Of a stretch of 64,000 nt of DNA, positions 45,233 to 49,941 are shown piece by piece (position 1 is the first letter of the stretch; every line of letters starts with the position of its first letter). The translations under genes were made by a program, and so were the position numbers. The DNA comes from Bacillota bacterium (GTDB lineage Bacteria > Bacillota > Negativicutes > CTSoil-072), in the NCBI GenBank assembly GCA_017889545.1, contig JAGFZV010000009.1:62001-126000 (forward strand), given 5' to 3'. The notes under the pieces are model-generated. The model saw nothing but the letters and a program-made list of their open reading frames with translations. It did no database searches and had not been told where the DNA came from.

Positions 45233-46337
45233 TCACCCCGTTATGCCGCTTTTCAAATACGCCTCGATAAACAAGTCCAGTCCGCCGTCCATCACAGCTT
45301 GCACATTGCCGGTTTCCGCATTCGTGCGGTGATCCTTAACCATGCTGTAAGGATGGAAAACATAGGAACGGATTTGGCTTCCCCACTCAATCGCCTGGTA
45401 TTCTCCGCCAATCTCCGAAATTTTGTCTTGCTGTTTCTGCTGTTCCAGCTTAAACAATTTCGCCCGCAGCAGCCGCAGGCATTGCTCGCGGTTCTGAATC
45501 TGCGACCGTTCGCTCTGGCACTGCACAACCACTCCGGTCGGCAGATGCGTCATCCGTACGGCGGAATCCGTTTTATTGATATGCTGACCGCCCGCCCCGC
45601 TGGCGCGATACGTGTCCACCCGCACGTCCTCCATATTAATGACGACTTCCACAGTATCCTCAATATCCGGCATCACATCCAGCGCCGCAAACGACGTATG
45701 CCGCCGGGCATTGGAATCAAACGGCGAAATTCGCACCAACCGGTGCACGCCCTTTTCCGCCTTCAAATAACCGTACGCATTCTTGCCGGATACCAGCAGC
45801 GTTGCGCTTTTCACACCCGCTTCGTCACCGTCCAGAAAATCCAGAGTTTCCACCTTAAATCCGTTCTTCTCCGCCCACCGCATATACATTCTGAGCAGCA
45901 TCTGGGCCCAATCCTGCGCCTCCGTTCCGCCGGCGCCGGCATGCAGCGTCAAAATTGCGTTATTCGCATCGTACGGTCCGGATAACATCAGGTTCAATTC
46001 CAAATGCTCCACATCCTGCCGCAGCTTTTCCATCCCGGCGACGACCTCCGGATATACGCTTTCTTCCTGCTCATCCATGCCCAACTGCCACAGCACCTTG
46101 ATATCGCTGTACCGTTCGGACAGGCTGTTATATTGATTGACATCATCTTTCAATGCAGTCAATTCCTGCATAATCTTCTGCGCTCCGACCGGCTCATCCC
46201 AGAAACTCGCATCGCCGATCATTGCCTCCAGTTCAGCAATTTTCTCTTCTTTGCCGGCTACGTCAAAGAGACCCCCGTATTGCATCTAGTTTTGCCTGAA
46301 AATCTTCAACCTCACGCCGTAAATCCTCTAATAACAT
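45233..46337 (-). CDS. prfB: Peptide chain release factor 2, expressed by programmed +1 frameshift
   Basis: Class I release factor for UGA and UAA, 367 residues after the shift. The first frame encodes MLLEDLRREVEDFQAKLDAI and four more residues and stops at UGA (46265-46263); the second frame continues DVAGKEEKIAELEAM to the end. The tripeptide anticodon SPF lies in RISPFDSNARRHTSFAA and the catalytic GGQ in GASGAGGQHINKTDSA. AGGGGG precedes the ATG at 46337. Two separate open frames would otherwise look like a broken gene. Follows secA/hpf order only loosely here, with the activase trio between. Confidence 0.96.
46262..46277 (-). promoter_or_regulatory. prfB programmed frameshift site
   Basis: CGGGGGTCTCTTTGAC: an internal Shine-Dalgarno-like GGGGG, three bases, then CUU-UGA-C. 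This is the classic RF2 autoregulatory slippery site, with the ribosome moving +1 on CUU when RF2 is scarce. Confidence 0.95.
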
Positions 46338-46419: not shown

Positions 46420-46448
46420 TAAAAAAAAGACTTAGCATGTACTAAGTC
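46420..46448 (-). terminator. Rho-independent terminator upstream of prfB
   Basis: GACTTAG and CTAAGTC pair around TACATG, followed by nine T on the minus strand. It ends transcription coming from the activase operon before the prfB promoter. Confidence 0.9.
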
Positions 46449-46539
46449 GCTTGCTTGCAATAGTGTTCATTCATAGCAAATTGATTTTTTCAAGGTATCA
46501 TAATAAAATGTACAGTTTTTATAATCCAATCAAAGCCAA

Positions 46540-46662
46540 CAAGCGGTTCAAAAGGGTTGAGATGCAAGAAACAGCAAGGCTTGCGACGCGACGCGTACAA
46601 ATCGTACGTGGAGCGAGCAAACGCAGCTGTGACGCAGCAGATTAGCCCTTTTCAACCGCTTG
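46540..46662. repeat. MITE-like element with 19-bp terminal inverted repeats
   Basis: CAAGCGGTTCAAAAGGGTT at the left end and AGCCCTTTTCAACCGCTTG at the right end match at 17 of 19 positions when inverted. The 85-base interior is GC-rich with internal symmetry around CGTACAAATCGTACG. It has no open frame and lies immediately after the activase gene. It looks like a non-autonomous mobile or REP/ERIC-like unit; only one complete copy is seen in this window. Confidence 0.55.
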
Positions 46663-46670
46663 TCTATTAT

Positions 46671-47645
46671 CTACGCGACGACGATGCTATTAGACCATCT
46701 CCCGCACTTATCTCCCCACATCGCTACAACACGGTCATCCATCATCACTTTCACGACCTCGCAAACATTCGCGCAGCCGTTGCAGATAAAGCTGGTTGGC
46801 TTGAAGGAAGATTCCAGCGCCGCATACCCCCGAAACGCGGTCGTCCGGCCTGTATTGGCGATATATTCGCGCGCCAAAATCGCCGCGCCGATCGCGCCCA
46901 TCACATTATAATAGCGCGGCACAATGACCTCATGGCCGATCTCAGCCTCAAACGCCGCCTTAATCCCTTTATTCGCTGCAACACCGCCCTGGAATATGAA
47001 CGGCGGCGTCAATTCGCGCCCCCGGCCCAAATTATTGATATAATTGCGGACCAGCGCTTCGCATAGGCCGCGGATAATTTCCGCCTTGGAGAAGCCGTAC
47101 TGCTGCTTGGCGATCATGTCTGACTCGGCAAACACCGTGCAGCGTCCGGCAATACGGACTGTATCCTTCGCACTGAGAGCCAGGTCGCCAAATTGCTCAA
47201 TCGGGATTTTCAGACGCTCCGACTGATGATCCAGGAAAGAACCGGTACCGGCCGCGCAAATGGTATTCATGGAAAAATCCGTCACCATCTGATTGCGCAA
47301 AATCAATATTTTTGAATCCTGACCGCCGATTTCAAAAATCGTTCGTACATCCGGGTGAAAGGTCACAGTCGCTGTTGCGTGAGCTGTGATTTCATTCTTA
47401 ATAATGTCCGCACCGACCAGCAACCCTGCGAGTTGACGGCCGCTGCCGGTTGTTCCGATCCCTTGCACCCGCCATCCGGCATCGAGCGAATTCATCAGAT
47501 CGCCCAAGGCCTTTTTCAGAGAAGACACCGGCTGACCCTCCGTCCGGTTATAGGACGAATACAGCACCGTGTTTGCATTGTCTATTGCGATAATATTAAT
47601 ACTTACCGAGCCGACATCGATACCGATAAAAACATTTTTTACCAT
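46671..47645 (-). CDS. BadF/HgdC-type CoA-enzyme activase ATPase
   Basis: ATP-driven electron-injecting ATPase of the ASKHA fold, 324 residues. FIGIDVGSVSIN and GIGTTGSGRQL bind phosphate, EIGGQDSK is the conserved switch region, and C130 (CAAGTGSFLD) and C169 (GRCTVFAESD) are the two ligands that let a homodimer share one 4Fe-4S cluster. Compared with HgdC (about 260 residues) it has a C-terminal extension with CNGCANVC and DKCGRWS, four or more extra cysteines seen in the DUF2229-linked activases. GGGGAGGAGG precedes the ATG. It is the last of three genes; the two upstream ones encode its likely partners. Confidence 0.9.
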   Translation of the reverse strand: MVKNVFIGIDVGSVSINIIAIDNANTVLYSSYNRTEGQPVSSLKKALGDLMNSLDAGWRVQGIGTTGSGRQLAGLLVGADIIKNEITAHATATVTFHPDVRTIFEIGGQDSKILILRNQMVTDFSMNTICAAGTGSFLDHQSERLKIPIEQFGDLALSAKDTVRIAGRCTVFAESDMIAKQQYGFSKAEIIRGLCEALVRNYINNLGRGRELTPPFIFQGGVAANKGIKAAFEAEIGHEVIVPRYYNVMGAIGAAILAREYIANTGRTTAFRGYAALESSFKPTSFICNGCANVCEVVKVMMDDRVVAMWGDKCGRWSNSIVVA

Positions 47646-47666
47646 CGTGTAACTTTCCTCCTCCCC

Positions 47667-48779
47667 TTAGCGAGCCGCCAGTCCCGGAACTCCGGCACGG
47701 CGAATTTTTTTGCCCATGGCCAAATCCAGAAAAGCCTCCAAGCGAGTCTGAATATTGGCAGTACCACGCTGTTCATCCAACGCCAAGGAGACGATCGGCA
47801 TTCCCAAGTCTTTGGAAATGCGCGGGATAATGCTTTGTGTCACCAACTCCGGCATACACGCAAACGGCATCAGATGAATAACCCCATCCAACCCTTTTTC
47901 CCAGTAATCAATCATATGAGCAATATTTTCCTGTTCATGACCACCCAAATCCAATTTTAAATACGGTTTCGCCTTCGCGATAATTTTTTCCATGTGCGAT
48001 TTGCGCCAGGGCAAAATCTGCAACCGCTGTTTCAGCCAATGCGATACATATTGCGAGTTGACAACCTCCACGCCCATCGCGGCCAGGGTTTCCTCAATCT
48101 CCTGATTGGCATGCCCTTCCATCGTCACATAAATTTCACCGACAATTCCGATCCGCATCGCCTGTTTCGGGTCCCACAGTTCAACCGGTACGGAATGCAG
48201 GATTTTCCAAGCTTTTTTTTCCGTCTCCCGCACATCCTGCCGGTCATAGCAAGTGTCAAACAGCTCTTCAATGTCCCGCCAGGCCCGGGTAAAATCACCC
48301 TTATTCTTTTCATGCGCCCGCAAAATACGGATCCGCTCCTGTATCCGGTCCATCGCGGCAATCAGGTCATAGCAAAAATGAATGGTTCCCAGTGCGTGCC
48401 ACCACGAATATTTTCCCTTCAGATCACGAATGCTGCCGATAAAATCACGCGGGTGCTTAAACAACGATTCGATCACAAAAAACTGCACGTTATAACCCAG
48501 ACTGGCCAAAATACGCCGATGCACTTCCGCATAAAAACCTGCCCGGCAATTATCGTCGCCGCCCGTCGTCACGATGGCTTCAGCCCCGGCTTCCAATGCC
48601 TCGATGTAAGTTCCCATCAAACACTTAAACGGAAAACAAAGGAACTCCGGGCTGTATTTCGTCGCCAAATCAAACGTCCCCTGGGTTGGCTTCTGTGGCA
48701 TAATCACCTCATGGCCTACCGCTTCCAACAACTTTTTATACGCAAGCACCGGACCCATGTATGGAAATGTCACCTTCAC
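47667..48779 (-). CDS. 2-hydroxyacyl-CoA dehydratase-like / DUF2229-type protein B
   Basis: A 370-residue soluble protein. Cysteines in FLCFPFKCLMG (about residue 47), DDNCRAGF, FCYDL and FACMPELV fit the iron-sulfur-binding pattern of the dehydratase superfamily and of the activase-associated DUF2229 family. C-terminal LALDEQRGTANIQTRLEAFL resembles the same region of its upstream neighbour, so the two are paralogous or correspond to two halves of the very large fused activases of other Firmicutes. The start is taken as GTG at 48779, with AGGTGG spaced correctly. Twenty-one bases separate it from the ATPase gene. Substrate unknown. Confidence 0.8.
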   Translation of the reverse strand: MKVTFPYMGPVLAYKKLLEAVGHEVIMPQKPTQGTFDLATKYSPEFLCFPFKCLMGTYIEALEAGAEAIVTTGGDDNCRAGFYAEVHRRILASLGYNVQFFVIESLFKHPRDFIGSIRDLKGKYSWWHALGTIHFCYDLIAAMDRIQERIRILRAHEKNKGDFTRAWRDIEELFDTCYDRQDVRETEKKAWKILHSVPVELWDPKQAMRIGIVGEIYVTMEGHANQEIEETLAAMGVEVVNSQYVSHWLKQRLQILPWRKSHMEKIIAKAKPYLKLDLGGHEQENIAHMIDYWEKGLDGVIHLMPFACMPELVTQSIIPRISKDLGMPIVSLALDEQRGTANIQTRLEAFLDLAMGKKIRRAGVPGLAAR

Positions 48780-48791
48780 TACCCACACCAC

Positions 48792-49778
48792 CTATCTCAC
48801 TGGGAATTTTTTTCGCCTCAGCATATCCGTAAACGCTTCCACTCTGGTGCTCAAATGCGCCTCGCCGGTATGCTCATCAACCCGGATCGTCATAAACGGT
48901 TTCCCATGATCCACTGCGATGAACTCCAGCAAGCGGCCCAGCATCGAATCCGGCCCGCACCCGAAAGCCGTCACATGGATCATGCCATCAATCTTAGGAT
49001 CCTCAAAAAAATCATAACCGGCGCCCAGCAGCTTGTTGGTGAACGTCCAAGGCGTGGTTTTCGAATAACGCTGTAATTTTTCCGCCACCGAGCCATCATC
49101 CAGCATCTCGAACGTAACCACGTCCGCCCCCATCAACCGCAGCTTTTTGATAATATCCATGCCAACAAAGGAATCATAAATATTGTAAACATATCCCAAT
49201 ACCGCAATCGTTAGCCGCTTTTCGTTTTTTGGCGGCTCGTATACAGGATTTTCTTTCTTATTCAGCGCAGCCATCGCCTCATCAATATTCATACCGGAGC
49301 GATGATAACGCCGAAATACCTCCCACTGCTCACTGGCCACCGCGAACGCCCGCTTCACTTCCCGGCCGCTCTTGCCCAACATTTTGGCAAGGCTCTCATA
49401 ATCCTGCGCGTCTGCCAGTGACTCCTGGCGACATTGAATATCCGGATCCAACAGACGTCCTTCCAGTCCGGGAACCGTATACCGCATCATATCAGGCAAT
49501 CCGAGAAACTTAGGACAAAACCGCTTACGTTCTTCCACCGTTATCATCCGGGGTATAAAGACTGCATCTACATCCGTGGCCAGCAATTCCACCACGTGAC
49601 CGCAGAAAATCTTAATCGGCACGCAAATTTCCGCGACCGAATTCCGCACCCCGTTATCCACAATATGAGGAGTCGTAGCCCCTGACGTTACTGTTTCAAT
49701 GTCTAAAGCATGAAAAAACGCTTGCCACAGTGGATCATAATAGTAAAAAAGCAGAGCCCTCGGCAATCCCACTTTCAT
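48792..49778 (-). CDS. 2-hydroxyacyl-CoA dehydratase-like / DUF2229-type protein A
   Basis: A 328-residue soluble protein beginning MKVGLPRALLFYYYDPLWQA, the typical N-terminus of DUF2229-type activase-associated proteins. Cysteines occur in AEICVPIKIFCGHV (about residue 50), RFCPKFL, and AFGCGPDSMLGRLLEF; RVDEHTGEAHLSTRVEAF matches the end of protein B. AAGGAGGTGAG gives a strong ribosome site. First gene of the trio. It lacks the sequence context of true HgdA/HgdB subunits, and no CoA-transferase or acyl-CoA dehydrogenase gene is nearby. Confidence 0.82.
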   Translation of the reverse strand: MKVGLPRALLFYYYDPLWQAFFHALDIETVTSGATTPHIVDNGVRNSVAEICVPIKIFCGHVVELLATDVDAVFIPRMITVEERKRFCPKFLGLPDMMRYTVPGLEGRLLDPDIQCRQESLADAQDYESLAKMLGKSGREVKRAFAVASEQWEVFRRYHRSGMNIDEAMAALNKKENPVYEPPKNEKRLTIAVLGYVYNIYDSFVGMDIIKKLRLMGADVVTFEMLDDGSVAEKLQRYSKTTPWTFTNKLLGAGYDFFEDPKIDGMIHVTAFGCGPDSMLGRLLEFIAVDHGKPFMTIRVDEHTGEAHLSTRVEAFTDMLRRKKFPVR

Positions 49779-49866
49779 ACTCTCACCTCCTTAGGCAAAC
49801 GAATAATTACATGGGTTCATAATGGTAGAATTATCTGTGAATAGTCATTTTTCCTGCTTCACCATT

Positions 49867-49914
49867 AAAAAAAACGGAGAAAAGCGCGTACTTTTTTCAA
49901 TACATCGTTTCTCC
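49867..49914 (-). terminator. secA terminator
   Basis: On the minus strand GGAGAAACG pairs with CGCTTTTCTCC around a 19-base loop, followed by eight T. It begins 28 bases after the secA stop. Confidence 0.8.
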
Positions 49915-49941
49915 CCATTTTCCGATCCGGTAAAATTGTTG

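Follow-up and report, generated by a model that had tools for sequence, protein, structure and literature searches.

A three-gene unit at 46671-49778 on the minus strand of the 64,000-nucleotide stretch of Bacillota DNA analysed here (contig JAGFZV010000009.1; the window) encodes, in this order, two proteins that we call A and B and an activase. We consider the trio likely to be an ATP-driven iron-sulfur (Fe-S) enzyme of low-potential electron transfer that would form a separate branch of the superfamily of 2-hydroxyacyl-CoA dehydratases, benzoyl-CoA reductases and the double-cubane cluster protein (DCCP). The role in ATP-driven electron transfer is proposed because of homology and cysteine anatomy. 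In HgdC, HadI, BzdPQ and DCCP-R, an ATPase dimer with a bridging [4Fe-4S] cluster injects low-potential electrons into a partner protein upon ATP hydrolysis. Activases of this type are the source of some of the strongest biological reductants, and their characterised partners fall into three groups, dehydratases, benzoyl-CoA reductases and DCCP. An earlier reading of the window, made from the letters alone (the sequence-only reading), had described the three genes as one leftward unit, and their positions and strand were confirmed; B starts at the first base after the stop codon of A, and a gap of 21 bp separates B from the activase gene.

48792..49778, minus strand: protein A, 328 amino acids, DUF2229 with an HGD-D-like C terminus; predicted catalytic or electron-accepting subunit with one three-cysteine site (C52, C88, C274).
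47667..48791, minus strand: protein B, 374 amino acids, HGD-D/DUF2229-like partner subunit with one three-cysteine site (C52, C82, C312).
46671..47645, minus strand: activase, 324 amino acids, ASKHA ATPase with predicted bridging-cluster cysteines Cys130 and Cys169 and a C-terminal CX2CX3CX18C tail (C288, C291, C295, C314).

The activase scored 157 bits against PF01869 (cut-off 31.5) and 180 bits against TIGR00241 (cut-off 125), which places it in the BadF/HgdC-type family, and its ASKHA ATPase motifs are invariant among homologs. Protein A matched PF09989 (DUF2229) with 161 bits and PF06050 (HGD-D) weakly with 31 bits; protein B gave weak matches to PF06050 (39 bits) and PF09989 (33 bits), and the weak matches of both proteins are above the cut-offs. 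Profile-profile comparison of A with B returned a probability of 99.9 and an E-value of 5e-33, showing that the two are mutually related. The cysteine motifs are C-V-P-I-K and GCGP in A and C-F-P-F-K and ACMP in B, in agreement with the sequence-only reading, which had recognised A and B as relatives carrying C-x-P-x-K and GCGP/ACMP motifs.

Cysteines were counted in homologs from 20 loci of the window's class and 80 named loci from GTDB genomes, the latter being the best matches of more than 570 matching stretches and no census. C52, C88 and C274 of A are kept in 103 of 103 homologs and C52, C82 and C312 of B in 97 of 97; all six activase cysteines (C130, C169, C288, C291, C295 and C314) are kept in 82 of 82. 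The earlier description of an ASKHA ATPase with cysteines 130 and 169 plus extra C-terminal cysteines was confirmed. This conservation of the trio's cysteines and motifs is far beyond chance. A phmmer search matched the activase to HgdC (1hux, E 1.5e-32), HadI (4eht), MbdQ (9gai) and DCCP-R (7yyl). The matches of these solved activators all stop at or before activase residue 263, ahead of the cysteine tail, and the tail is absent from the other two short activases of the same genome (266 and 273 amino acids).

The [4Fe-4S]-OH2 catalytic site of BzdO is ligated by Cys95, Cys128 and Cys380 (PMC11971306). The cysteine spacing of A (36/222) and B (30/230) resembles that of BzdO (33/252). The double cubane of BzdN is ligated by six cysteines (PMC11971306), and A and B each hold half that number. 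In profile searches of PDB sequences, A and B aligned over their last ~65 residues only, around the third cysteine, which aligns with a cysteine of DCCP and HadC. Comparison of B with the one-subunit HGD-D protein of the same genome by hhalign brought all three cysteines into alignment; global hhalign of A or B against single HgdA or HgdB sequences yielded nothing meaningful.

AlphaFold2 models of A and B were built from 18-sequence alignments, with predicted local distance difference test scores of 84.8 and 84.5, and compared with the PDB by Foldseek. The best match of the predicted A model was HadC (3o3n_B, E 6e-8), followed by DCCP and BzdNO; that of the predicted B model was also HadC (3o3m_B, E 2e-9). 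All PDB matches at E <= 0.001 (12 chains for A, 20 chains for B) fell into one superfamily, namely 2-hydroxyisocaproyl-CoA dehydratase, DCCP, BzdNO and MbdON. Query-normalised template modelling (TM) scores were 0.46-0.60, at a root mean square deviation of 7-10 Å and a sequence identity of 11-19%. The models indicate that A and B belong to the fold, with domains that differ widely, rather than being close kin of dehydratases, DCCP or BzdNO. Of the placements that the sequence-only reading had considered for A and B among HgdA/HgdB, DCCP and DUF2229 proteins, membership in the HgdA/HgdB/DCCP/BzdNO fold family stands; a place as ordinary HgdA or HgdB is unlikely, no curated equivalog claiming either protein.

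The same genome encodes a fused protein of 1429 amino acids (locus L015, 6285-10574), onto which the profiles of the trio map consecutively. It consists of a divergent activase-like region (residues 1-280), an activase with the cysteine tail (301-623), A (660-962) and B (1011-1429). The A-type (C706, C747, C916) and B-type cysteines (C1056, C1091, C1349) are kept by position, as are those of the cysteine-tailed activase, and the counterpart of A is 28% identical to the window's A. As judged by this mapping, the trio corresponds to the fused activase/DUF2229 proteins of ~1430 amino acids in split form, as the sequence-only reading had proposed. Because the three parts are joined in a single polypeptide elsewhere in this genome, A, B and the activase very probably act together. 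Fused proteins of this kind (~1300-1450 amino acids, 'acyl-CoA dehydratase activase-related', PF01869 plus PF09989) have the same domain types, cluster cysteines and activase cysteine tail. They differ in combining two activases, A and B in one chain, whereas the window has three genes and one activase.

The family is already named (DUF2229) and common in anaerobes; it is uncharacterised, not rare. A relative of A is present in 208 of 250 genomes of the window's class, mostly in the fused form. The label 'undescribed' given by the sequence-only reading is therefore apt for the function, not for the family. We found no relevant functional study of DUF2229, COG3580/3581 or SMU.438c in open-licence papers, in which this branch, widespread in anaerobic Bacillota and marked by its own cysteine signature, is without a functional account. 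A selenium-genomics paper places an activase and a dehydratase subunit, which may lie outside this branch, near selenium genes in Slackia (PMC5322559), a different context.

A-B-activase on one strand is the commonest layout, seen in 66 of 100 loci from Bacillota, Thermotogota, Calditrichota and Asgard genomes, and nearly all loci have two distinct, adjacent A and B genes. The tree of concatenated A and B sequences places the window in a 15-row clade with a support of 100. Three of the rows are from the window's class, at 63-64% identity; further members, with identities of about 40-50%, are Lutispora, Natronincola, Alkaliphilus, Tindallia, Tepidibacillus, Halanaerobium, a Thermotogales bacterium and a Calditrichales bacterium. 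A recurrent neighbour gene was sought beside the trio across the window and 14 clade relatives, and none was found. Because no gene recurs there, no substrate is readable from the context, and the substrate-specific gene set that the sequence-only reading would have counted against itself is not present in the window clade. A hemerythrin-like gene adjoins the trio in Natronincola and Alkaliphilus (L075 12129-12695, L079 6559-7125), and Fur-like and FMN-binding-like genes adjoin it in L076 and L077, all named by eye; an oxygen or redox link is possible, the cases being too few to judge. Several genomes of the window's class carry extra divergent A-B pairs without an activase of their own, beside the main trio or near spoVAD (L071, L070, L060, L066), and these pairs perhaps share one activase.

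In sister groups of the window clade, the operon is tied to sporulation genes. In 31 loci, the gene directly upstream of A on the same strand is a spoVA gene, and the gap between the two has a median of 24 bp. The order in L136 and L147 is dacF-spoIIAA-spoIIAB-sigF-spoVAEA-spoVAF-A-B-activase-lysA, and Moorella thermoacetica (L140) has spoVAC-AD-AE-AF-A-B-activase. Loci with this arrangement come from Desulfotomaculaceae, Syntrophomonadaceae, Moorella, Thermincola and Halobacteroidaceae, and one member of the window's class (L060) has it too. The linked loci (L136, L147, L107, L140 and 27 others), most of them in anaerobic Bacillota, hold A-B-activase operons or A-B pairs, and in some of them lysA or a TrpB-like gene comes next. 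Pfam was used to check one representative each of SpoVAD, SpoVAE, SpoVAC/AEB, GerA-type SpoVAF and the spoIIA/sigma genes; the other spo names were assigned by clustering with these representatives, and dacF and lysA were named by eye. Within the window's class, SpoVAD is present in 42 of the 42 examined genomes with a split A and in 9 of the 37 that have just the fused form or neither form (Fisher p 7e-14; the test takes no account of how the genomes are related, which makes the evidence look stronger than it is). The sequence-only reading had seen no telling context; this holds for the adjacent genes of the window but not for the sister operons. The link of A-B-activase operons to spoIIA-sigF-spoVA is new here, as far as the open-licence literature goes: searches for sporulation (including spoVAD) together with hydroxyglutaryl-CoA dehydratase or these reductases returned nothing relevant, the broader queries being at title and abstract level.

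None of the 15 rows of the window clade shows the spoVA linkage. SpoVAD and SpoIVA were not found in the window genome, whose assembly is 96% complete, and Spo0A is present. Since this genome carries the trio without SpoVAD and SpoIVA, sporulation cannot be the role of the trio there. The window-type trio thus has no need of sporulation of the SpoVAD/SpoIVA type, and it is the sister groups that have the sporulation link. The genome also carries Omp85, a diderm trait, and represents a diderm lineage that has probably lost sporulation; a class that is diderm and includes spore-formers suggests Negativicutes. As a tentative proposal, which we hold at somewhat less than even chances, anaerobic spore-formers may run an ATP-driven low-potential Fe-S reductase within a spoVA/sigma-F-linked sporulation programme, using it for a reductive step in the formation or germination of spores that is missing in aerobic Bacillus. 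The window clade would then hold a vegetative version, in which the catalytic pair is of a separate type and the activase bears an additional cluster for electron entry. The precise operon link in the sister lineages turns the question of function into testable statements on sporulation-timed expression, on a spore phenotype and on the cluster content of the three-protein complex.

The genome has a separate full dehydratase operon (L017). Beside an activase and a pair of HGD-D subunits it encodes a CoA transferase, both electron-transfer flavoprotein subunits (EtfA and EtfB), an acyl-CoA dehydrogenase and an FAD-linked hydroxyacid dehydrogenase, the accessory functions being named from sequence by eye. 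Because of this canonical 2-hydroxyacyl-CoA dehydratase operon, the trio is not regarded as a fermentation enzyme, and a role in amino-acid fermentation was rejected. The sequence-only reading had come to the same view from the lack of catabolic genes next to the trio, and the neighbours indeed lack them. A further locus (L016 7096-10575) encodes a one-subunit HGD-D protein, an activase and a hydantoinase-like protein between murI-like and rph-like genes; it is another uncharacterised ATP-driven Fe-S pair.

We infer the workings of the trio from its anatomy as follows. In the activase dimer, C130 and C169 of both subunits would ligate a bridging [4Fe-4S] cluster, and the CX2CX3CX18C tail of each subunit would carry another cluster, the entry point for electrons from ferredoxin or flavodoxin. 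By binding and hydrolysing ATP, the activase would lower the potential of the bridging cluster and dock on a putative A-B heterodimer. Electrons would then pass singly to an open three-cysteine [4Fe-4S] site in A and another in B, and the substrate would be reduced there, or dehydrated via a radical. The function would be house-keeping or condition-specific rather than amino-acid fermentation. We name no substrate, and nothing in the data points to one. Of the earlier proposal that the trio reduces a substrate or cofactor, ATP-driven electron transfer is upheld by homology and anatomy, while reductase activity and a substrate are a presumed further step. Several points weigh against an ATP-driven electron-transfer enzyme. 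A three-cysteine set can ligate a merely structural cluster, and the same picture would be expected of a scaffold or of a part in cluster maturation. The TM-scores are moderate and the deviations large, in models from small alignments; close relatives have no common neighbour genes pointing to a substrate; and biochemistry for this branch was not found in the open-licence literature.

The trio resembles HgdCAB and HadIBC (1hux, 4eht, 3o3m) in its two-cysteine bridging activase and its two related three-cysteine subunits of the same fold. It might accordingly be taken for an ordinary (R)-2-hydroxyacyl-CoA dehydratase of the HgdC/HgdA/HgdB type that dehydrates an unrecognised substrate via a ketyl radical, since two related subunits come with an activase and since the predicted fold and the presumed cluster sites are as in dehydratases rather than double-cubane proteins. 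We regard this as quite unlikely. No curated model claims A or B (the best NCBIfam match, of B to HadC, reached 12.6 bits versus 700), their similarity to Hgd/Had proteins is limited to the last ~60 residues, identity over the fold alignments is 13-15%, and A and B have their own Pfam family. The compared dehydratase activases lack the cysteine tail, the L017 operon already provides a dehydratase, and genes for CoA transferase, 2-hydroxyacid dehydrogenase or acyl-CoA dehydrogenase/electron-transfer flavoprotein are not linked to the trio in the window and 14 clade relatives. Class I benzoyl-CoA reductases (BzdNOPQ and MbdONPQ; 8s02, 9gai) share the fold of the catalytic pair, ATP-driven activases and the BzdO-type [4Fe-4S] spacing, but have two activase genes, a six-cysteine subunit and aromatic catabolism genes, whereas the trio has one activase and neither other feature. 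Against the equivalogs of these reductases the activase scored 92 bits versus 578 (BcrA) and 87 versus 380 (BzdQ), with no adjacent aromatic genes. DCCP and DCCP-R (6eno, 7yyl) are alike in fold, ATPase partner and absence of linked catabolic genes; DCCP is among the best fold matches and is the best PDB profile match of A (E 1e-4). Even so, it is hardly probable that the trio reduces small molecules in the manner of DCCP, with a double-cubane [8Fe-9S] cluster in A or B. DCCP is the homodimeric product of one gene with a double-cubane cysteine set, whereas the trio has two different genes whose products keep three cysteines each (103/103 and 97/97), versus six in BzdN (PMC11971306). The NCBIfam double-cubane model NF040772 gave 14 bits against a cut-off of 350, and DCCP-R (243 amino acids) lacks the tail of the window's activase. 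The double-cubane reading was rejected on the cysteine counts; a cluster shared at the A-B interface may be compatible with the sequence.

The trio could also be a maturation or activation machine that reduces the cofactor of another enzyme or builds a complex cluster. The lack of fixed substrate genes and the wide distribution in the window's class would suit such a role, and a related activase, methanogenesis marker 15 (TIGR03286), sits in a methanogen-specific family; the score against it was 113 bits, below the cut-off of 455.75. In methanogens, McrC-like genes are listed with a CoA-substrate-specific activase next to them (PMC4153887). We hold this role to be unlikely, as no target enzyme gene is linked either and the resemblance to marker 15 is confined to the activase domain. 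That the trio is primarily a sporulation system, left over in the window genome from an ancestor that sporulated, is favoured by the 31 sister loci with operons directly behind spoIIA-sigF-spoVA genes, by the SpoVAD counts (42/42 versus 9/37) and by the retention of Spo0A without SpoVAD and SpoIVA. The missing spoVA linkage across the 15 rows makes this very unlikely, and the clade includes Halanaerobium, a Thermotogales and a Calditrichales bacterium, from lineages not known to us to sporulate. The window copy has retained every invariant residue, and for this reason selection seems to act on it without sporulation of the SpoVAD/SpoIVA type. These estimates overlap in part with that for an ATP-driven electron-transfer enzyme and do not sum to one, the dehydratase, DCCP-like and maturation roles sharing its electron path.

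Two features flank the unit.

49779..49941, minus strand: intergenic region between secA and A, 163 bp, with a good ribosome-binding site (aggaggtga) ahead of the ATG of A.
46429..46448, minus strand: terminator-like hairpin with an 8 bp stem and 8 T's, between the activase gene and prfB.

No convincing promoter was found in the secA/A region at 49779..49941, the best match being 9/12. The hairpin at 46448-46429 is called from its shape and place, the terminator count of the scan being not above that of shuffles. Control by an RNA element was rejected, a search of the whole window against Rfam having given zero matches. A functional tie of the trio to hpf, secA or prfB was rejected, as trio orthologs elsewhere have different neighbours; a tie to prfB is further opposed by the hairpin and a repeat element lying between prfB and the trio. 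This repeat of ~125 bp (46539-46663) resembles a miniature inverted-repeat transposable element with 27-nt imperfect terminal inverted repeats (81% complementary), and 12 further copies or parts of it, 71-90% identical and some in tandem pairs, occur in the genome. The prfB gene itself (minus strand) starts with an ATG at 46337 and has, within about 46265-46337, the classical programmed +1 frameshift site of release factor 2, with an in-frame CTT TGA C after a GGGGG stretch; the list of open reading frames holds its downstream frame only.

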